Assembly (NCBI GenBank): GCA_921293015.1
Contig: OV121082.1
Location: 49,620,971-49,684,970, forward strand
DNA length: 64,000 nucleotides
Direction of reading: 5' to 3'
DNA from: Phorcus lineatus
Taxonomy: Eukaryota; Mollusca; Gastropoda; Trochida; Trochidae
In this document: positions 13,501 through 46,911 of the stretch, in pieces
Layout of the letters: every line of letters begins with the position of its first letter
Position numbering within the stretch: the stretch's first letter is position 1
Notes under the pieces: generated by a model
Database searches by the model: none
What the model was told of the DNA's origin: nothing
The model's input: only the letters and a program-made list of their open reading frames with translations
Made by a program: the position numbers and the translations under genes

Positions 13501-16500
13501 GACTTTTTATAGGGATTTTACAAATATTGCCAAAAAACCCACTGTCAGTTAATATTTAGCAATCAATCTTTCACCGTGTTTGTAAATTTGAATTTGAACA
13601 AGTATTATTTTGTTTCTATTTCCGTGAATACACAAGGGATTGCTTGTTCAAATACACCATAATCAATGTAAGCAAGGAAAGACAACTCACAGGTAGGCCG
13701 GTGCTCCCGTGTTAGATGCAGTGTCCTCGTGCACTTTCATCACCCACTCTCGGTATTCTCGCTTCTGTGTCTCGTGCACATTGCTCAGTTCACTTGCCCA
13801 CTTGCTGTTGATTAGCTGTAAATAAACAAGGTTATTATGTTTAACGATCTCTCTTGGATGAGATAGGTGACTATGATTAAGTCTGTCTATTATAGAAAAA
13901 TCCATGCATGCCCTACGACATTTACCCCACAATAAGAATCTGATCCCTTTTTTTTAAGATATGTCCATTCTACCTTTCTTCTTTTAGAACCATAACAGTG
14001 AGTGATTTGTTTACTGTGATAAAAAGAAACATTAATTCAATGTGTATTAAAAAAGCAAATAAAGGGAGACAACTCCATAATGTATAAATGTCCATAAGCT
14101 TAAAAACAACCTTAGATGATAATAAAGCACAAGATAAAAAAAAAAAATTAATTTCTCTAAAAATAAGAAATATCTATCTTTCAAATTCTTATCAAACTAC
14201 AAATAACACAAAATTTAAAAAAATTTAATAAGAGAAAGAATTATCTTATGAAGTTAACAGTTTCATGAAGGTCTTGTATTTAGAAGAGGGGTTATTTTCA
14301 ATTGCTCCCATTTCTCAGTACTCATCTTATGAATGTTAATTAAAAATTCATTGTAGGGATCCGAGTCTCCTATCTCATACACAAGTCTCGATTTCTGATT
14401 AAACCACCTGTTCCTGGAAATTACCTAGTATGAGCCCACATGAGCAGGGAATACAAGGTTTATGATCCTCTAACAGTGACGTCTATGTGAAGTTTTATCC
14501 AGCAATATCTCAAGTACCCCGATATCAACCATGAAGGAATCACATAAGTCATATTCAATTCATAAAGTAGGGTATAATCCATTTTGAGCATGTACTACAC
14601 ACAAATGCAAATGCAAATGAAGAAAACAAAATAAATATGTTTGGGTGAAGAATTTCGCCGGAAATGTTTAATCTGTACGAATACAAGTTTTTTCATTTGC
14701 ATTTTCTAGAACTGTGCTCACAAAGTGTAATATTCCCTACGGTTTTTGAATTATACATTAAAAGAATCTGATTACCTGTGTATTTTCAAAGTGTCTCTGT
14801 GCCAAGGTGTTGATATCGTCATCTGCGTAAGTTATTCCAACGTTCTTCAGAGCCAACCCCATCTCTTCTTGCTGTCTATATTGAACAACAATTAGTTATA
14901 TATAATGACAAAATTCTTACTGTGCATCAATTTATTTATATGTCATAGATTTCAATATTTAAGATCTTTGCATATTTTGTACCTCTTAACAATCAAAATA
15001 TTTGTACAGTGTCATATCATATTGTTAAATGTTGAGTTAAAATTTAATACACTGATCCACATTACATAATAACATTTACATTTATTTCTTTTCATTTCCC
15101 ATTTTTGGGAAATATACAACCGCACAATGACATCAATCAAAATTGAGCAATATTGGCACTATTTTTATAAAGCTATAAGTAACAATTAATTGACAGCTAA
15201 AACATTAGGTTAGAGATATCACAGTAACAAGAACAATGTTATATGGAAGTACGGAAGCTGCTGAAAAATATTTCCCCTATTATGTCTTTAGGCAGGGTCA
15301 AATATGCTATTCAATAATACACTTGCCCAAAAGGGATCCCTACAGTCAAGTTTCCTAACATTACTCCTTACGGGAGCAAAGTCGATAAAGATTTGAGGGT
15401 GGACAAAATGTATTAATGTAAACCCTTACGTTTACCAAGCCAACTGTGAAAAGTTTTTATGGAAAATGACTACCACAATCACAAGGGACCAGATGTACCA
15501 AGTTTGATCTCCTAGTTGCAGGTACCTGCCCACAAGCTTTTCAGTTTTTGGGATGTCGCAGTTCTGGAGATGATGAAACTTTGAAAAATTTACAGGTGAA
15601 GGATGCCGGACCAAAGCCCATGAGAAAAGCTCAGAACACATAACTTAAAATATTTAGCTCATTGGCATTTATCATCATTTAAGAAGTGTTTAGTATGTTC
15701 GGAAAGAAAAGTTGGACGAATTCAGGACTTTTTAGAAATATGTTTTGCCAAAATAATCCTTACTTTACATCTAGATGTTCAAGGTCCTTGTCTCTCTGAT
15801 CAGTAAGATCTTCGACAGCAAGAGCATATGTATGTTCGAGATTGAGCAGCGTTTCCAGCGCTGGAGAGTGGATCAGCGTGTGATAAACATCGGAGAACAT
15901 CTGGTCGTTCGTCACTTCTGCAGGTTTTGCATAATCTTTCACTTCCTGTTGAAAAGAGAATTAGTTAGAATTAGCACAGATGACTTATATATACCATGGC
16001 CTACAATGGTAAATTCATTCATCAAAACCAAAATAAAATAATTCCTATAAATTTGGCAATAAGTTAATCAAAGAATAATGAAGGAGTTCCTCATCGGGTC
16101 AGTGACAACAGATCATGAGGAGGCAAGACAGAAATTTACAAAAGACTTAAATATATGATAGACATGTGTCAGTTTCGTAACGTTTATACACTTTGTGACT
16201 GAGTTAAAAGTAGAACAAAGATTTACTGACAGATACCATTGACTACTGCATAGAGGGGGTATAACTAAGCTACAGTAGAAAGACTCTTTTGATGTAAAAT
16301 GCTTTTGATCAAAGGATCACATTTTAGATTAAGGTTTTTCATTAGGCCAAATGCTGACCTGAGTGAATGCTTTGGTCCAGCGCTTGACAAGATCATCCTC
16401 CGAGACTTGACCCTTTTTGACCCTATCAATGGCTTCCTCCGCCACTGTGTCACTCAAGTGGTGACTCTCCCGCTCAGCAAACTCTGACAGTGACTGTTTC

Positions 16501-19858: not shown

Positions 19859-19910
19859 ATGGAGGAAAGTCGGTCACCGACGGGTGAGCAACGTGCCCCC
19901 GTCCCACAAG
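19859..19910 (+). CDS. WKK gene exon 1 (start codon exon)
   Basis: ATG then EESRSPTGEQRAPVPQ, donor CAAG|GTAAGA, phase 1. An alternative strong donor (CGG|GTGAGC, exon end 19883) is also phase 1. The frame continues in exon 2 with no stop. The upstream UTR extent is unknown. Confidence 0.65.
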
Positions 19911-22900
19911 GTAAGAACATCATCATAATTTGTTATACGCCGAGGAATAAGCTCAGATTGTTATTTTCTATCGATCCACCTAATTATGATGACATTCGTT
20001 GCTTTTCCTAAGAGTTTGAAGTGTTTGTTTGTGGCAGACATGCCGAACGTACTTGTGTCCGCTTTGTTCCAGAAATAGGTCACTGTCTCCGTGAATAACT
20101 AATGTGAACATTTTACCATATTACACCGTTATAATACGTTATCACTCATATGGAGGGACTTGTGTCGGCCAGTACTGGCTAGTGACAGTCCACAGTATGG
20201 TGGATACGGCCCATACTGCAACAGTCCCCATCACATTCGCCTGAGTCTGGGAAGCTAGGTCATAGAATGAAGTGGGTCACCGAGGCAGAGCCTTCAAGGT
20301 GGGGTGTATTGCCAACTAACGTGTCACGAAGTTCAGGCTTATTTCGTGCCTTTTTGCCGTTATTCTCTTTGTGAACAGCTTAAGATTGAATTTCATTAGA
20401 TTTTCTCAATGTATGACCTATGTCTCAACTATTGTAAGAACTGTCATCAACTTGGATTGCTAACCGGGACATTCTAAGTTTGACCTGTTTAGTGTTTGAC
20501 ATTGATCGTGTTGCTCTAGTCGGACCGTCGATTGACATCATTACAGTGGCCGCGGCAACATAGCCTATAACGGCAACCATGTCAGCCTGACCCCCAATAA
20601 AATGGCAAAATTTTCCTTTTTGTCGGGTCATAATATCGTTCATTGTGCACTGACTTAACTGAGGGATTTGGCCAAGTACTCTTGCAGAGACCTACTTTTC
20701 TTAGTGTCAGTAAATAGGTTATTTATTTGGCCCACATATTGTATCACTTGACTCTGCCATATATATGTATTTTGATTATCTACATCAAATTTTGCAGTAA
20801 AAGTTTTTTTTTTATATGGATTTTTTTTGTCATTATAAGGAAACCTAGAAAAAATTTCTGGATATAAATGCAAATTAGCAATGAATTCGCACTTTATGAT
20901 TATATTTTATTCCACATATGTACTATCAAAAGATGTTATTTTATGACATTTTTGTACCTTCTATGTCCTTGGACACTGGACAGAGTGATTCAACGATGTC
21001 AGACACTGTTTTCATATGACTCAACTGTTAGTCACTCGACAACAGACCCTATCCTGTCGGAAGTGTTAAAAAAGATTCGTTCCTCATTTTTTATCATATT
21101 TTGTAAGATTATTTTGTATTACAGTAATACCTTATTTTCATAATAATGTTCATGCAAATGTCTTTTAAAATGATGTTAATAATGATCATAAGTTTCATTT
21201 TAATATTTTGGTCAAAGTCCAGCGTATCATAAACTTTTGGTAAATGAACTTATGTTTTTGTTATTTTGATATTTCATTAAAGTTTTGACATTTACAGTAA
21301 AAGTAGTATAGAAGAAAAGATTTATGTCTTTTCATTATATTGTATAATACATTTCATTGTATTATATGAAATATTATATGATGATATACAAAATACCCTG
21401 GTTCATCACCCTGGATGGATATTTAACCAAATTTCGCTCTTTTGTTGCAATCATATTGCAACTTTTTTAATCTACTCTATTTCGAAGTCTGTATGCTTTT
21501 AGTTCAGTTTTAAGCATGATACCTTAAAAAAATCCTGTCTTATTTCATTCACTCGGAATATACATATGTATGTAATTTTAAGAATTGAAATTGAAATAAA
21601 GATAAAAATAAAGTGATAATTATCCTACTTTTCTCTTTCATTGTCCAGTGGTGATATGGAAGAAGAATGAAAACGATGTCAATAACAGGACTGCACTCAC
21701 TACAACAGACATGCAACACGAGGGGCGTAGCCCCGCCCACTCACCGCAGTCGGACGACGTCAGGGATGGACCTCTCCTTATCGCAACACCAACCTCGCCC
21801 CAAGGTTGGTACTTTGCTGATCATGTTAACTTTTATTCATCGATCTGATGACAAATCATTCAAAGACCACCAAAACTTTACTGATTGTCTAAACTTTAGA
21901 GCTCATCCATTATGAGTTGTCCGATTCTCGAGAGTAATACAGTCTGATGTACCGTCTTTGTAGCAGTTTCACAATAGCCGCCAGGCGAGGGATGACACTA
22001 GTACAAAGATGGTACATCAGACCGAATATCCCCCAGGGAGAAGCATATTAATCTTACCTCATTTACAATGACGTCTTTGATAGGTATTCTAGAAGTTGAT
22101 GAGATGAACAATTAGGACAAATGTTATTGATATCCAACTTCTTTATTCTGTGAAAGCTACATTTCAATATAGATTCTAATGATAGGATCTATGTCGAAAC
22201 GTAGCTTCCAACAAATGAAGAAGTTGCTTCATAAACATTTTCCTTATCATTTATTTACAATGAGGCAAATGTTTTGACTGTTGACACTTAGTTAGCTTTC
22301 ACCGCTTATATGGCCTTGACCCTAAACATAAACAAAATTTAGTTGTCCGTTTCGACTGAAATGTTATTGGTCATGTTCCATGCTAATTCACTCTTAAAAG
22401 TTCTTTAAACCATGTCATCTAAATTCAATTGTGTGTGCAAGTAAAGAAATGTAAAAATACGTTTCAGATGAGGCAGATATGTTGGAAAAACAAGTCTGTA
22501 ATTAATATTCATGAAAACAGCTGATCGTACTAATGTTTACTCGGAACATTGTGTTCATTGTTACGTTATGACATTTAATCCTAATGTGACCCCATGAGGA
22601 GCTGTTACTATGGCAGTGGGGAACATGAAATTTGTATACCATGAGATAGATTGTCACGGGGTACATAAGATTGTATCGACCATCAGCCAATCAAAATCAA
22701 TTTTTTTATAACCTATTGGTGTAATTAATTGAATAGAATTTAGAACTCTGTGTCAAAACAACTTTTTAACCATATTTCGATTAACAATTCCTACATTTCT
22801 GGTGTGTTACCTAGTGTCACTCTGGCTTTAACTTGAATTTTTTAAGGAAATATGATGAAATGTTTTTTTGAGTCGTGCATTGGGTTGATACAAAGATAAA

Positions 22901-25900
22901 AGATTTAGGGTTATGGGACCCGTCTTCATTAGTATTGAGTAGGTCCATGGTATGCTTTCAGATGAACAGTGACACTTGTATAGGTCAGGCTGATATCAGC
23001 CATATTTGTTTCCACTAGTTTATTTGTAACTCAAGATTCTGAAATAAAATCTAATCAGTTTTGAAATTTGGATGCTAATTTGCTCCTCATGTTTTGAATA
23101 GTTTTGTGTCAATAAATTTTATATCTTTGCCATCAAAATCCAATGATTTATCAATGAAATTGCAATTGTTTTGGAAACTTTTTCCATTTTTGTTATGAAA
23201 ATTAATCAAGTATAAGGTGTACTTGCATAACTTTTGGTTTCTATAAATATATAGGTGATAGGGGTTTAGGTCATGTCCGGGTTATGTCCTGGTAACCATA
23301 TAGGTCTTATCTTGTGTACAGAAGAGTAAGTATCAGTGATATATGTGACAGAATAGGATCCAGATATTTCAAAACTTCCTTGTTGCTGCACCCAAGAAGT
23401 TTATTATGTCTGTTCTTGAAAGCTGTTTTGTGTAAACACCCCCCAGGAATACAAACATGGTTAGAAGTCAAATATCTTTGTGACATGACATAAAAACAAT
23501 GCTAAGTCTGGTCTTAAGTAATGGGTTCACATTGACAAAGCAATGCCCAAGTTATCTCTGGTCTTACTTAAGAACAGGAACAGAAAGTTTTTTGGGTTTA
23601 TCCTTTGTATTTCATTTATCCTTATTATTTCCCTCCACTCCCCCCTCCCCCCCCCTCCACCCTTCCCCTCCCTTGCACCTCCTCCTCCCCTCCCCTTCCC
23701 CCCTTCACTTCCACCCTTCACTTCCACCCTCTTCTGTTCAGGTCTGATCCATCGCTTTCCTTGTGCAAGTTAGTGCAACTTAATCTTGATGGAAAGTAAG
23801 ACATGGTACCGTTTTATTACATTGAGTGTAACTCTGTTCTATCAGTCAAATATGAAATTGTTTGTCGCTTTATCGCTACTCCAGTGATGCAATCAAAATA
23901 ATGATATACTGGTAACGCTAATTAGAGTTCTGCTATTTCTGCAAATACACAGCTGAATGTTGCCAGTTTCAACAAAATACACCAATACAAATCTAATGAT
24001 AAATAGATTTTATGTTTTCCTTTAATGACAAATAACATGTTTAGTCTCATCTTGTGAAGGAGAACAGTTAATATTTCCGATTTATAAAATAAAAATGGTA
24101 TTTGTCAAGAAATACATATACCCTATATTTATTCCCAAAACTACTTTGAATCACTTAACATAATAAGTTAATTGTTTCTGCATCTGTCATATGAGATTAT
24201 TACAATTTTAGATTTGGTATGGAAAAAAGGGGGAAGTCGGGGAGACACCAACCTTGTGAGGGTGACGATGGTGGCCCCCCAGGACAGCGGGTTATGGAAG
24301 AAGAATATCGTCAGTGTGGCGGACACTGTTCCCCAAGAGAGCAAACTGTTTGTACACAAGAATTCTGCCAGTAGCCTTGGGAGAAACATGGTGGAATCGA
24401 GGAGAGAAGAACACACCTGGAAGAACAGTATGGGTGACGTGGACAGCAGTGTGACTGACATCCATCAACAGGAACACCCAGTGTGGAAGAAACGTGGTAG
24501 TGTAGAGCACAGTTCAGACTCTCGGCATGAACATTTTATGTGGAAAAAATCTGTGAGGTACAGCACGGAAAGTGCCGAAGCTCATTCAGAAACAAGTCCT
24601 TTAGGGTCACCGCAGCGTGACCTTCCTGACCGACCTCTTCTCAACTCATCCTCAAGGTCACCCCAAGGTCAGTTTACATGGATCATTCTTTAAAGAAAAT
24701 ATATTGCCGTAACTTCTCTGAAGTAACAACCTGAAGCAAGGAAAGGAAATGACCTTGAAAGTTCAATGTCATTTAACTGAAATTCAGTCACTTGTAGTTT
24801 TGTAGATTAATTGATAATATTCCAAATATTTATCATTCCAAATATTTTATGAGATGCTTTGTTAACAATTAAGTATATGATATGGAAATATAAAATGACA
24901 TTTCAATATTAATGTTACCTTGTGCTGTTTAAACTCTCAATCCATTATTATTTTGACATATCTTCAAAGCATGAAAATTAATGCATCATCTCTTTGCTAT
25001 GCAGATGCGTCAAACTCCAGAAGTAGTAGTGGCAATGTTGAAAACTGGGATGTTGGACGTAAGTTCTCATTATTTCTTTGTTCTTTGTCTCTCTTCGTTG
25101 TTTTAAATTTTTGAACTGCAGTAATAATGTGTAAAAGATATTGGTTTATCATCCAAAACTGTGTTACACAGGAGTTATCGCTTGTAGAAGATCTAGCAAT
25201 ATCTCCTAGGAGATATCGTTTTGACAGTAGATTTTGAACAATGCCCTGTTACAGTCAAGTTCATGACATCGCAGTTGTTTTACATCATCAGACAATGACA
25301 TCATAATGCTTTGACATCATAAACATGACGAGGTCACAGTGCTATGACATCACCGTACTGGGAGTCTTGGAGTAGTACAGTGTTTTGAAATATACATTTT
25401 TCACGGAATCTAAAGGAAAAATGATTTTGGATGATAAATAGAATCTCACCCTTGTGTCTTCTTATATCAAATATATCAACACTTGTTGATAAAAGTAAAA
25501 ATGTTTGTAACTTTTATCAAGCCTCGGATATTTGTAACTTTTATCAACTCATGTTGATATATTTGGTATCAGAAGACACTTGGGTGAGATTCTCTATGTA
25601 TATTATATCAAGATTTTGATACTGTGAATGAAACTAAAGAAATCATTTATGATCATAATGGTTAGTTAATCAAAAACTCAAAAGTAGTAGCGGCAATGTT
25701 GGGCGTAAGTTTTTTATATATTTTTAGTTACGTTTCTCTTTCGTTGTTTGAAACTTTTGAAAAGCAATACTAATATGTAACAAAATTTGATGTTTGTATA
25801 TACATAAGTATGTATGTGTGTGTATAGATATATATACATTCATTTTTATAACTGATTAATTAATTAGCCATCAGAATGGTTAGTTAATCAGTTAAATCAA

Positions 25901-34900: not shown

Positions 34901-37482
34901 AACCAGTATTTATCATATATATGTCTTTTGGACCTGAAAAGTTAAGATGTTTTGATTTAATATCACCACATATGACATTTAGGTTCGTATCAAAGATAAA
35001 TAATATGTTATGAAAATCACGGAGTGGCTTCTTTAAGCCTCATAATTAGATAGATATAAGATGTTAATGAGGTGGTCGCTGTTGAGTTTCATATAGATTT
35101 GACCTATAACACTTAAGACTCCCTGAAGTACTCGAGTACGTGATTGTTCGTTCATTTTATTAGGTCTCAATATGTTCAATGTAGGTATCACAATTGTACA
35201 GCTATAATTTAGTATTATTGTGTCCCAGATTTTGAACTTAAGTGTCTATTGAAATGTGAACTTTTAAATAAAGCCAAGTTCACATGTAATGAACATCAAA
35301 CAAAACATGTTAAACCTTTAACTTAACATATTTTCTTTGTCATGAACAATTAACTTTATTGTTATGTTAAAGTTTTCCCACACATTTCACCTTCTAAAGT
35401 AGTAGGCATTTACGCTGAAACATCCTGTATTATTATTAGGAAGCTGTTTTTAGGGAATCCCTTTTTAAAAAAAAACCTTTAACATAATTGTGAAAATTTA
35501 TTACAAACTTTTTGAAAGTATGTGTCGATGACAAGATTTCTTGTCACCTGAGAAATTTTGTTTGAAAAAGGAAACAATTTTATATTTTAGACATCAATAA
35601 TTTTTTAATTTTGGTGAAAAAGTTGATCTATAAATCTAAATCTTTTTATAAGTTATAATTAGTTGTCTGGTTTTGCAAAGTGATTTATGCATTAAATTTG
35701 GAAATATTTAATTAATTTTATCCTGTATAAAAAAACTTACTCACTTGGATGGATTGTCAGAAACGTGTACTTATAATATTTGCAAGGTGTGAAACGTTTC
35801 AGTACCTGACATCTGAATATATCTAAATCAACTTAATGAGCACCTACCTCTGTACAGCTTCAAGGGACATATATAGCAGTTCCTGTCTCGCTAAAACTTT
35901 GTGTTAACTGTAAATCAATATTCAAATGAAATTTTGTGGTGTCTGTTGTAATCTTAAAGTCTATTTATGAGGAGGTTTGGTGATTTAATGGCCAACATGC
36001 CCCCTAGTGTACAGGTGCTCTAAATCAAGTTTGATAAAAAATATATTACACTTAAGACTTTTCGATTTTCCACAGAGTCAAGTTGAAACAATTTGCATAT
36101 TCTGTTTCATAGCCAATCACTGATAGATTATAGTTATGATATTGTGACAAGTTCTATTTACATTATGCTTAATTGGCGCCAAACTTTCAAATATCATCCA
36201 AATCAAATACCCCTTTTAGAACCCCTTGTATAATGTTGGTGATTGCTCTTTCTGCTGATAACAGTAGATTCAATTCTAGTTGTTAAGTTTGTCTTATGCA
36301 GTATTATGAATAGACATTTAATGTATTAAACGTTTTTGTTTGATAATGGCAAAGCTGATCATCAATTATATATATATATATATTTATTTAACGAGTTAAT
36401 GATTAAGTATATTTAACGAGTTAATGATTAAGTATAAAACGAACGAAAGCGATTTTAATATCAAATCATTAACGAGTTTAATAATCATAGTATTAAATGG
36501 AAGGAAGTTTAATATTCTGTTTGATACTTGACCTCAGTAATCAAGCATGATTGCCGAAAGTGTACTGAAGAAACATATCCGCGACTTGGCTGCCATTGTG
36601 ACGGCGGTGCTAACATTGTGACGTCACAACCACACAATATTGTGATGTCATACGTGCAGCGGTATTACACTAGTGTAATATTGCCATATAAATATTACAC
36701 TGCTGTATTTTACAAGGGAGAGTAATAATTTATTTTTTTTGTTTCCAAGAATTTATATCATCCAACAAAGGTTAAAAAAAAATTTCTTATCCGGCATAGT
36801 TACATAAATACGTACTTGAAGATTGTTACTATTAAAGTTAACTCATACTTTTGCACTGATGCTAAAACAGTTCTTAAGAAATTAACAATCCATATCACTT
36901 GGTCTTTATCCTTTCTTTATCTCTACATCTTCAAAAATTGCCTCTTGAAAAAACCCAAATACTTAGGTTCTTTGCGCAGAACAACCTACACACTAAGTTA
37001 TCTAAGTACCGTCTATTCTCATCAAACGTAAGTTAATTTTTGTTTTTTTCAACAGGACCATGATTATCTTTCAAACACTCATTGTTAATTGTTAGCAATT
37101 GCAGTTATGTCTTTGAAGAGCATGTAGAAAATAAGAAGTGATAAACATAAGGAAGAAAAGATTTTTAGGATAAAATCTTTATGAAGAGATTCAAGACATT
37201 TTTTACTAAAACCCTAAAACGTTGTGAATCTCACGAGACAGAAGCTGTTATCCAAAAACTCTTGTCTTACTGATTGCAGTCACATCAGTTTTTAGTTTCA
37301 AGACGAAACTACAATTTAAGCTTTATTTTCAGGCTGGTCTCAAGATTATTCAAACTCCAAGCTCGCGGCAACTTCGTCTGAATATGACGACTCAAAGGTA
37401 CCCGGTGAAACTCCTGAACGCCCGAGCTCGGGGAATGGATATCTCCCGGTGAATGTGTCCAGTCCAAGTATACCTAGTCCAG
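19859..37482 (+). CDS. Unrecognised gene encoding WKK-repeat, Ser-rich protein; 5' part, five exons
   Basis: I do not recognise this gene. Five exons with GT-AG borders (19859-19910, 21649-21804, 24212-24667, 25005-25058, 37333-37482) join through phase-1 introns into 289 codons, open at the 3' side. No signal peptide, membrane segment or known fold is visible. The sequence is rich in Ser, Pro, Gln, Asp, Glu and basic residues, so probably disordered. A short motif, hydrophobic then Trp-Lys-Lys, recurs at Trp 21, 73, 98, 139, 161 and 180, with a degenerate copy (FVHKN) near 118. Within exon 3 the spacing is 19-25 residues. Basic-Ser motifs such as KKRGSV and KKSVRYS look like kinase sites. 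A cytoskeletal, scaffold or signalling protein is possible but not shown. Further exons should lie downstream. Confidence 0.75.
21649..21804 (+). CDS. WKK gene exon 2
   Basis: Acceptor ctttcattgtccag, donor CCCCAAG|GTTGGT; 52 codons, phase 1 at both ends. Starts VVIWKKNEND and ends GPLLIATPTSPQ. Open across the whole exon in the frame set by exon 1. Confidence 0.75.
21941..22022. repeat. Short foldback repeat, about 22-bp arms
   Basis: AGTCTGATGTACCGTCTTTG at 21941 is mirrored by CAAAGATGGTACATCAGACC ending at 22022, with one mismatch. Loop of about 39 bases. In intron 2 of the WKK gene. Confidence 0.6.
22135..22226. repeat. Foldback repeat, about 42-bp arms
   Basis: CAACTTCTTTATT, GAAAGCTAC and the following bases pair with GTAGCTTCC and AAATGAAGAAGTTG. 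A single-sided relative (CAACTTCTTTATTCTATA) occurs at about 17690. Confidence 0.55.
23628..23735 (+). repeat. Pyrimidine-rich low-complexity tract
   Basis: About 108 bases of almost only C and T on the plus strand, with a direct repeat of CTTCACTTCCACCC. Open frames across it are low-complexity artefacts. Confidence 0.8.
24212..24667 (+). CDS. WKK gene exon 3, main repeat exon
   Basis: Acceptor tacaattttag, donor CCCCAAG|GTCAGT; 152 codons, phase 1 at both ends. Contains DLVWKKGGS, SGLWKKNIVS, KLFVHKNSAS, EHTWKNSMG, HPVWKKRGSV and HFMWKKSVRYS, then a tail RPLLNSSSRSPQ resembling that of exon 2. A 456-base open exon in AT-rich DNA is strong coding evidence. Confidence 0.85.
25005..25058 (+). 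CDS. WKK gene exon 4 (small)
   Basis: Acceptor gctatgcag, donor GGAC|GTAAGT; 18 codons, phase 1 at both ends, encoding DASNSRSSSGNVENWDVG. It retains a single Trp and no KK. A decayed copy lies 670 bases downstream. Confidence 0.7.
25441..25592. repeat. Foldback element with about 55-bp arms
   Basis: GAATCTCACCCTTGTGTCTT and on to TATATCAACA at the left is mirrored by TGTTGATATATTTGG then AAGACACTTGGGTGAGATTC at the right. The loop contains two copies of TTTGTAACTTTTATCAA. It lies between exon 4 and its decayed copy. Confidence 0.7.
25676..25800 (+). pseudogene. Decayed duplicate of WKK gene exon 4
   Basis: AAAGTAGTAGCGGCAATGTTG followed by GCGTAAGTTT matches exon 4 and its donor, then TTTCTCTTTCGTTGTTT matches the flanking intron. 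About 16 coding bases are deleted and no acceptor AG with a pyrimidine tract precedes it, so it is unlikely to be spliced in. Confidence 0.65.
27262..27570 (+). mobile_element. SINE family 1, near full length
   Basis: tRNA-like head with B box GGTTCGAATCC, then GCCAGGGGCTCGACAACTTT, the TCTGCGGTAGAGAACTG block, CTGAATTTCAGTGC, GCAATGCATAGCCACAATGG, AGCCGCGATATAAGTGAAAT and the tail CCCCATATCACCTCACCCC. Confidence 0.85.
30201..30374 (-). mobile_element. SINE family 2 (tRNA-derived), minus-strand copy
   Basis: On the minus strand: AGTAGCTCAGTTTGAAGAGT (A-box-like), GGTTTGACTCCC (B box), then the body AAAAGATGGGAGTTGCTGCT and TCCTTGCTTGGCACTGAGCA. The same body is seen at 40357 and 60648. Confidence 0.75.
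33625..34058. mobile_element. Possible hAT-like MITE
   Basis: Begins TAGGGGTGAAAATGTACG, with GGTGCGTATTGCGGTACAGG and GGACCCTCGGTTTGGTAC inside, and ends with the roughly inverted GTACAGTTGTGAACC. This TAGGGGTG...GGTTTGGTAC style is typical of old hAT-type MITEs in animals. The termini are degraded and no clear target duplication was found. Confidence 0.45.
34247..34420. mobile_element. Short-TIR MITE, copy A
   Basis: CAGGTATTGGGAAAG at the left and CTTTCCCAATCCCT at the right are inverted repeats. The interior (GGGCCATTCCCCTTTGTAGC, then GTGCAAAATGGCCAATGGCC) matches the copy at 45368. It is longer than copy B because the GGGCCATT segment is partly duplicated. Confidence 0.65.
36387..36436 (+). 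repeat. Two 25-bp tandem units
   Basis: TTTAACGAGTTAATGATTAA and the following GTATA occur twice in a row after a (TA)n run. An inverted piece (AATCATTAACGAGTTT) follows at about 36464. Confidence 0.75.
37333..37482 (+). CDS. WKK gene exon 5
   Basis: Acceptor ctttattttcag, donor TCCAG|GTAGGT; 50 codons, phase 1 at both ends. Starts RWSQDYSNSKL and ends NVSSPSIPSPG. It is richer in C+G than its flanks. The 12.3-kb intron before it means intermediate exons could have been missed. Confidence 0.7.
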
Positions 37483-40356: not shown

Positions 40357-40595
40357 TCTTCAGTAGCTCAGTTGGTAGAGTGTCTGCTCTTCACCGGGAA
40401 AACTGCGGTTTGATTCCTGACCGCATCATACGAAAAGACGTTGAAAGATGGAAGTTGTTGCTTCCTTGCTTGGCGCTCAGCATCAAAAGGATAGAACATT
40501 GCTTGAATTTGCGCTGCATGTGGCTCCAGGGTGACAAGGGCACAGATAGAGTTTCTGACTTGCTATGTAATGAGGACAATAAAGGGTTTATTTTA
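40357..40595 (+). mobile_element. SINE family 2 (tRNA-derived), plus-strand copy
   Basis: Head TAGCTCAGTTGGTAGAGTGT (A box) and GGTTTGATTCC (B box, 40407-40417) resemble a tRNA. The body AGATGGAAGTTGTTGCTTCC then TTGCTTGGCGCTCAGCATCA is shared with copies at 30201 and 60648. It is not a functional tRNA gene because a long unrelated body follows. Confidence 0.8.
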
Positions 40596-45496: not shown

Positions 45497-46618
45497 TCCA
45501 CCTTTGGCTTTTAGTCCACAATGTTTCTTTTAAGAAAGACTTCTTGGGGAAGAATAAACCCAGTTGTGCTTCCGTAGATATCATAACAAAATAAAGATGA
45601 ACTTCATGTAATAATAGATTATCAAACTTTTTGATTGAATGAGCACCTTTCTTTGTCAAATTGTAAAATCTGAAACAACCAAATTGTTATATTCAGGAAC
45701 TTGCTTAAAATAATCATGAATGAATCATGTATTATGACCACAAAAGGAATGTGATGACATTACTCTTCCTGTAAGATTATTATGACCTCATAGTTCAACA
45801 AGTTTGCTATTTCCCATTGTTGCCAGCATTATTTCTGATTAAGCTGGTGATATGATTTCATGCAGTTGTCAATGAGTGATTCACAATTGTTGTGAATTGT
45901 TTAGTCTAACAATTAGACTCTGAAATGAAAATGTATCAGTTAATGAAAATTTAAAAAAAATATTAAATGAAATGAAAAGGAGACTGCAATTCCTGAAATT
46001 AAGCTCTTGAGTGTTTCATAGACTTGCTTAGGCTTCTTACTTATTTCAGGGTCTGGCCTACAGTCTATGAATTGTTTAATGTTGTCAATCATGACAAGAT
46101 ACATAGTATCGTAGAAAATATATGTTTATGAATAGATTAATATCTCAATATATCTTTTGATGTTATTTTGAATGAAAAGTTTTAATTTTCATTCAGTCTG
46201 TTTTATATGAACAGGTAACAGATTTGCATTTTGAATAAAACAATCTGAATTCCTCTCACATCACAATTTAGTAATACAACAATATTCTCAAATCAGACAT
46301 TTAAATAAGAATAAACTAATTTCAAACTGTAACTCTGTATGAGTCGATAGCAAGGTAAGTTATACGTGTACCTTCAGAGGTCAGATAACAATATACAATG
46401 TGGTTTATGTAAATTCATTGGGCCAAGTTCCACAAACAGTTGTAGACTTGCTAACTGTCTGTAAGTAAATCAACAAACTTTTTTAGCTCATGAATTATTT
46501 GATTACTTTAATCTTGGTGATAGTTCATGTGTAAGTCCTAGTTCATGAAATGAAAATTCATCGATTCTGAATCAACCATTTTGTAATTGTTATCACAGTT
46601 GTGTTCTACGAACTTCGA

Positions 46619-46911
46619 GGGGGCGGGATAGCGCAGTGGTTAGCGCGTTCCGCTTCCGATCAAGAGGTCAGTGGTTCAAATCCTGCCAGGGGCTCGGCAA
46701 CTTTGTCTGCAGTCAGGTTTGGGAGCAAATACACTGAATTTCAGTGCAGTATTACCCATGGTTAGCTAATTCCAGCCAATGTTTCACCGCAATGCATAGC
46801 CACAATGGTGTTGTGGGCTTTCTCCCTGCAATAATACTAGCAGCCGCGATATAAGTGAAATACTCTTGAAAGCGGCGTTAAACCCCAACTCACTCACTCA
46901 CTCACTCACTC
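46619..46911 (+). mobile_element. SINE family 1, full-length copy with (ACTC)n tail
   Basis: A box TAGCGCAGTGG (46629-46639) and B box GGTTCAAATCC (46673-46683) define a tRNA-derived head. Body as in other copies, 3' end AAAGCGGCGTTAAACCCCAA followed by five or more ACTC units. It looks like one of the best-preserved copies. Confidence 0.9.

Follow-up and report, generated by a model that had tools for sequence, protein, structure and literature searches.

A tandem W-K-K motif in the putative N-terminal region of a probable NR1-type nuclear receptor of Phorcus lineatus

A 64,000-nucleotide stretch of the Phorcus lineatus genome (contig OV121082.1, C2:49620971-49684970; hereafter the window) contains a set of + strand exons, two of which encode seven copies of a short hydrophobic-Trp-Lys-Lys (W-K-K) core, and which probably form the 5' part of a nuclear-receptor gene whose recognisable domains lie beyond the window's end. 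The window was analysed together with the 80 kb that follow it, in joined coordinates spanning both, against the background of a 958 Mb genome. Exons were scanned by codon usage and splice sites, with training on 27 kinase-locus sequences carrying kinase motifs from the same genome. The open exons, their phases, the repeat, the similarity between exons, the enrichment of Ser/Thr-Pro sites and the downstream receptor domains reported here were all computed in this way or by comparison with shuffled sequences and profile libraries.

Exons and repeat array in the window

The exons of the gene model that fall within the window, and the intron predicted to follow them, are listed below.

Exon 1, 19859-19910, + strand: start codon ATG and MEESRSPTGEQRAPVPQ; ends in phase 1 at a strong donor (6.5); coding log-odds 10.3 over 17 codons.
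Exon 2, 21649-21804, + strand: W-K-K copy 1 and the tail SPQSDDVRDGPLLIATPTSPQ; phase 1-1; coding log-odds 18.2 over 51 codons; acceptor 4.5, weak donor 1.8.
Exon 3, 24212-24667, + strand: W-K-K copies 2-7 and an exon-2-like tail; phase 1-1; coding log-odds 41.3 over 151 codons; weak acceptor -1.5, donor 3.9.
Exon 4, 25005-25058, + strand: DASNSRSSSGNVENWDVG; phase 1-1; weak coding signal, 3.3 over 17 codons.
Exon 5, 37333-37482, + strand: WSQDYSNSKLAATSSEYDDSK...SSPSIPSP; phase 1-1; strong donor 7.0; coding log-odds 12.3 over 49 codons.
Intron 5, 37483-64000 and on past the window to C2:49701666, + strand: predicted from the exons and the scanned gap.

All seven W-K-K segments named in the initial annotation were found, in the order claimed, on the two + strand exons 21649-21804 and 24212-24667, each flanked by AG and GT and in phase 1-1, and its account of coding exons with splice signals, a true repeat and a Ser/Pro-rich setting was likewise confirmed. 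The first copy is present but reads PQVVIWKK rather than PQ-GVVIWKK, the G being the final base of exon 1, which completes a split Val codon. The Trp codons start at 21657, 24220, 24295, 24418, 24484 and 24541 of the window, and the remaining, seventh copy has Phe instead of Trp, at 24349. The spacing between successive cores is 52, 25, 18, 23, 22 and 19 residues, such that the description of the array as a tandem repeat of roughly 20 residues holds for copies 2-7, on exon 3, but not for copy 1, which sits apart on its own exon at a distance of 52 residues.

The 290-residue N-terminal region of the gene model contains eight Trp residues, six of which are then followed by [KR][KRN]. A W[KR][KRN] count of 6 was reached in 0/200,000 shuffles (shuffled maximum 3), and self-similar 9-mer pairs numbered 67, compared with 14.0 on average in shuffled sequence (0/2000 shuffles as high, shuffled maximum 42). 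These shuffle tests were made after the fact, with a motif picked from the same sequence, although the observed counts still lie far beyond the shuffles. Trp-Lys is kept in 6/7 copies whereas the residues around it and the codons used for Lys have diverged, as judged from an alignment of the six Trp copies only; the codons after Trp read AAG AAG, AAA AAA or AAG AAA, and AAG AAC where the pair is Lys-Asn. Because the Lys codons differ among copies, the cores do not appear to be a recent repeat at the DNA level. Against its reversed control, the DNA pattern TGGAARAARAGY showed no excess (1134 and 1148 vs 1277 and 1225). The initial annotation had also pointed to Ser residues soon after Trp. Ser is found no more than four residues after the core in 5/6 Trp copies, but this is near composition and unremarkable (0.515 expected per copy at 17% Ser, binomial P ~0.12). 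Ser/Thr-Pro sites, one of 16 motifs tested, are enriched in the N-terminal region (11 vs 5.07 expected, P 0.001), basophilic kinase sites show no enrichment there, and the charge of the region is balanced (K15+R19 vs D20+E19).

The origin of the array is best read as a duplication of exon 2 that gave rise to exon 3, with the W-K-K unit then multiplied inside the new exon. This reading, to which we are led by sequence similarity, is drawn because the tails of the two exons align beyond shuffled expectation and both exons finish in SPQ at a phase-1 junction. The stretch of exon 2 from its Trp onward aligned at a score of 55 with the terminal part of exon 3 that starts at the last Trp (0/1000 shuffles, maximum 50), and the tails alone, which were picked by eye, scored 54 (0/1000 shuffles, maximum 47). 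As exons 2-5 are all phase 1-1 in the model, duplication or skipping of any of them leaves the frame intact. Searches of the same genome for paralogues, in which only the best candidates were scored, returned a single match, itself, for an exon-3 query, and seven matches for a 289-residue query at E up to 10, five of which were the gene's own exons. The remaining two were weak (E 3.2 and 4.0), were to exon 4-5 sequence, and lay near C2:43.56 Mb. Hairpins with arms 80-85% complementary occur in introns 2 and 4 (21937-22027, 22135-22226 and 25440-25593) and resemble small mobile elements.

Receptor domains downstream and the join to the array

Exons outside the window, at C2:49701667-49711689, encode a DNA-binding domain, a hinge and a ligand-binding domain. 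The downstream exons matched Pfam zf-C4 (PF00105), the C4 double zinc-finger DNA-binding domain, at 5e-29 over profile positions 2-70 of 70, and the same open frame of the model matched Hormone_recep (PF00104), the ligand-binding domain, at 3e-14 over positions 10-176 of 213. The scan's three strongest internal + strand exons (86405, 89778 and 88553 in joined coordinates) all encode nuclear-receptor parts; the first-zinc-finger exon (C2:49701667-49701764, joined 80697-80794) ranked 8-9, and the second-zinc-finger exon (C2:49706382-49706532) and the last exon were located by reading frames. With its splice cut-offs, the automated scan missed exon 2 and did not give exon 3 in full, both having weak splice sites, and listed 24472-24667 in place of the latter, with another entry phase. 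The gene model was the product of assembly by hand, with splice sites chosen with the frame in view, and comprises 11 exons and 1083 codons with a single stop, running from the ATG at 19859 to C2:49711689 in one frame across 10 junctions. Because sites were chosen in this manner, no independent support can be drawn from the phases of the later junctions. The hinge exon (C2:49707375-49708888) accounts for 504 codons of the model and is long and Ser/Pro-rich. Further exon-like + strand candidates occur at about C2:49729000-49733600 (joined 108-112 kb), perhaps representing a further gene downstream of the receptor; those at joined 110-112 kb rank among the receptor exons in the scan and may belong to that gene.

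The link between the W-K-K exons and the receptor is a predicted splice from exon 5 (37482) across 43 kb to C2:49701667, which we regard as likely. Strand, order and phase agree between the two sets of exons. With a phase-1 entry and no ATG ahead of the zinc finger, the DNA-binding-domain exon depends on some upstream exon that ends in phase 1, and exon 5 offers such an end with a strong donor (7.0). The W-K-K exons could instead constitute a separate gene, lying between the neighbouring gene FERRY3 and the receptor and ending within the gap at 37.5-80.7 kb, in which case the receptor would use another first exon. This would suit the 43-kb size of the gap, and 5/10 of the best terminal-exon candidates there enter in phase 1, but it appears quite improbable given that the strong donor of exon 5 is in the phase that the DNA-binding-domain exon requires, that 0/10 of the gap's best non-overlapping + strand initial-exon candidates end in phase 1, and that the scale which gives the receptor's last exon 44.1 gives the best terminal candidate 16.7 (joined 68696-68811). 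It is somewhat unlikely that the W-K-K exons are one of several alternative N-termini of the receptor, an explanation that is compatible with the 43-kb join and not opposed to it. Nuclear receptors commonly have alternative A/B regions, and the large introns and symmetric phase-1 exons would permit skipping, whereas no rival first exon in the right phase was present among the ten best of the gap.

A number of features weigh against the join. The 43-kb splice is predicted from phase and the lack of better alternatives; intron 5 would be 43 kb in length, and a match of phase has a one-in-three chance. Some of the splice signals are weak, both in the window (exon 2 donor, 1.8; exon 3 acceptor, -1.5) and downstream (second-zinc-finger acceptor, 0.3; hinge donor, 1.8; last acceptor, 1.6). 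On codon usage, the frame of exon 5 is also tied between a phase-0 reading (37333-37448) and the phase-1 reading, at 24.1 vs 24.0, the latter being preferred because it alone fits exon 4. To the terminal candidates that enter in phase 1 can be added a phase 1-1 internal candidate in the gap (40372-40530) that scores 10.0, and the gap may hold more weak exons, as the model's exon 4 itself scores only 10.6.

The receptor most likely belongs to the NR1 type, as judged from the scores of its nearest solved relatives. Among these, the DNA-binding domain scored 106 bits against ROR-gamma (7xvn, 1.2e-29), 98 against RAR-gamma and 94 against NR1D1, while the ligand-binding domain, queried without about its last 40 residues, scored 106 bits against NR1D2, i.e. 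Rev-erb-beta (2v0v, 1.6e-29), 89 against NR1D1 and 87 against PPAR-gamma (best 60 of 511 matches). The receptor thus resembles the ROR/DHR3 group (NR1F) in the top solved match of its DNA-binding domain and the Rev-erb group (NR1D) in that of its ligand-binding domain, but differs from the latter in that its DNA-binding domain matches NR1D1 less well than it matches ROR-gamma and RAR-gamma. A second locus in the genome (L059, on C25) has a DNA-binding domain that looks NR1F-like, and on that account the receptor is probably not the NR1F orthologue. Compared with other NR1 sequences, the receptor's DNA-binding domain apparently has three extra residues between the zinc fingers (GFFRRALQNVGDPARKKC), on the D-box (dimerisation) side.

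Perhaps the receptor is of the orphan oyster 'NR1CDEF' kind. In an oyster survey, the unplaced orphan bivalve receptors CgNR1CDEF alpha/beta and MgNR1DEF show mixed affinity to the groups NR1C-NR1F (PMC4070562). They would share with the receptor considered here both the NR1 type and the mixed affinity, which in the present case lies between ROR (NR1F) for the DNA-binding domain and Rev-erb-beta (NR1D) for the ligand-binding domain. In contrast to the receptor's putative W-K-K array, no repeat in the A/B region enters their description in the part of the survey consulted, the comparison being one of descriptions only (PMC4070562).

Possible function of the W-K-K cores

The reading favoured here, with moderate confidence, is that the W-K-K exons encode the disordered A/B region (with activation function 1, AF-1), 290 residues in length, of a 1083-residue orphan NR1 receptor, and that the multiplied cores dock co-regulators. 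Nuclear-receptor A/B regions show high variability and contain AF-1 (PMC4070562). From the computed features we infer the 43-kb splice, the disorder of the region, the docking, its partners and its regulation. According to this proposal, a short hydrophobic-Trp-Lys-Lys unit would have been multiplied in part by duplication of a symmetric phase-1 exon, followed by multiplication within exon 3. Each core would be a weak, partly redundant docking peptide that combines an aromatic anchor with a basic flank, and several copies acting jointly would recruit a transcriptional co-regulator or the transcription machinery, or would bind the receptor's own surface, with proline-directed kinases tuning the binding through the surrounding Ser/Thr-Pro sites.

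The 'unrecognised protein' of the initial annotation is probably recognisable after all, as the frame leads on, via the candidate splice, into the DNA-binding and ligand-binding domains of a nuclear receptor. Of the two roles that the annotation had suggested for the repeat, docking is still the best guess, while membrane or filament binding is unlikely given the receptor domains. It had further named, as an outcome that would speak against it, membership of a known family whose literature already covers the motif: the superfamily is indeed known, but a description of the W-K-K motif was not found in a small number of strict literature searches, which makes this a weak absence. The protein most likely belongs to the nuclear-receptor superfamily, and what is of interest is the tandem W-K-K motif in its putative activation region.

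That the cores are weak multivalent docking peptides is put forward tentatively, at slightly less than even confidence, by analogy with the N-terminus of the androgen receptor. The motifs FQNLF and WHTLF of that receptor can interact with its ligand-binding domain (PMC7949100). The two N-termini would have in common a disordered receptor region with short aromatic motifs, those of the androgen receptor N-terminal domain (FQNLF, WHTLF and the AF-1 element Tau-5) being ones that dock (PMC7949100). They differ in that no FxxLF or WxxLF occurs in the W-K-K region, and homology is not claimed.

Profile and structure libraries gave no matches to the N-terminal region. Pfam returned 0 families at E up to 10 for residues 1-239 and likewise 0 for exon 5 with read-through, searched separately; PDB returned 0 matches at E up to 10 for all 290 residues; and NCBIfam returned 0 at E up to 1, a weak test as that library is built for bacteria and archaea. 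A LIM protein of the sciellin/ZNF185/LMO7-LIMCH1 kind, considered for its SW-x-K-K-like motif, was dropped once the receptor domains were found; the six frames of the window and the following 80 kb contained no match to a LIM pattern, in a search that a domain split by an intron would escape.

Some observations count against docking of co-regulators. The cores fit no co-regulator motif among those tested (LxxLL, FxxLF/WxxLF, CoRNR, CtBP, Groucho, HCF-1, 14-3-3, SUMO and the LC3-interacting region, LIR): with the exception of one LIR match, lying away from the W-K-K cores, the N-terminal region contains 0 matches to these or to WRPW or K-[KR]-x-[KR]. Activation peptides are usually acidic-aromatic, whereas the W-K-K cores are basic. 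An AlphaFold prediction of exon 3 only, made from a single sequence, gave a mean predicted local distance difference test (pLDDT) score of 49.5, which says little on disorder.

Two further explanations of the cores were considered. They could be a basic-aromatic array that contacts DNA, RNA or nucleosomes, or a self-association array that drives condensates. The placement of Trp beside Lys pairs in multiple copies would accord with either, and phase separation has been reported for disordered regions of the androgen receptor (PMC10669190). The region is not basic overall, given its balanced charge, and the Pfam search of residues 1-239 offered no match in support, such that this explanation is judged improbable. 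The array could also be a functionless relict, left by drift after a unit was multiplied where constraint is low. A/B regions evolve fast, and no paralogue turned up among the best candidates scored in the same genome. Against this, Trp-Lys has been retained in 6/7 copies despite the divergence of its neighbours and of the Lys codons, and a relict therefore seems distinctly unlikely.

Under the favoured reading of an A/B region with docking cores, an unknown repeat protein becomes a testable claim, namely that an orphan NR1 receptor carries a series of similar short cores at its N-terminus. Should multivalent docking be true, the six to seven copies would amount to a natural titration series relating the copy number of a weak motif to receptor activity. 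If the cores do not dock, this would be an ordinary variable A/B region, and the window simply ended short of the recognisable domains. A more ambitious proposal, which we consider a long shot, is that the cores represent a new class of co-regulator docking motif of receptors, apart from LxxLL, FxxLF/WxxLF and CoRNR, that was multiplied by exon duplication and within-exon repetition into an activation or repression region, perhaps in the orphan receptor of one invertebrate branch.

Neighbouring genes

The receptor gene appears to be in head-to-head orientation with FERRY3 (C12orf4), which is represented by two - strand frames at 13687-13953 and 15760-15960 that match Pfam Fy-3 at 1.2e-8 and 5.9e-15. 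In human, the head-to-head neighbour of FERRY3/C12orf4 is RAD51AP1, and the partner here is a different one. RAD51AP1, tried as a candidate on the basis of FERRY3 synteny, was rejected: 0/3 matches to PF15696 (RAD51_interact) were on C2, the two over the cut-off being on C37 and C5 and the one below it on C7 (12 candidates scored). An open frame on the + strand at 46571-46765 is probably not a gene, and resembles repeat-derived frames common in animal genomes. A + strand frame at 1246-1530 contains a thioredoxin domain (5.6e-16) and belongs to a probable protein disulfide isomerase.

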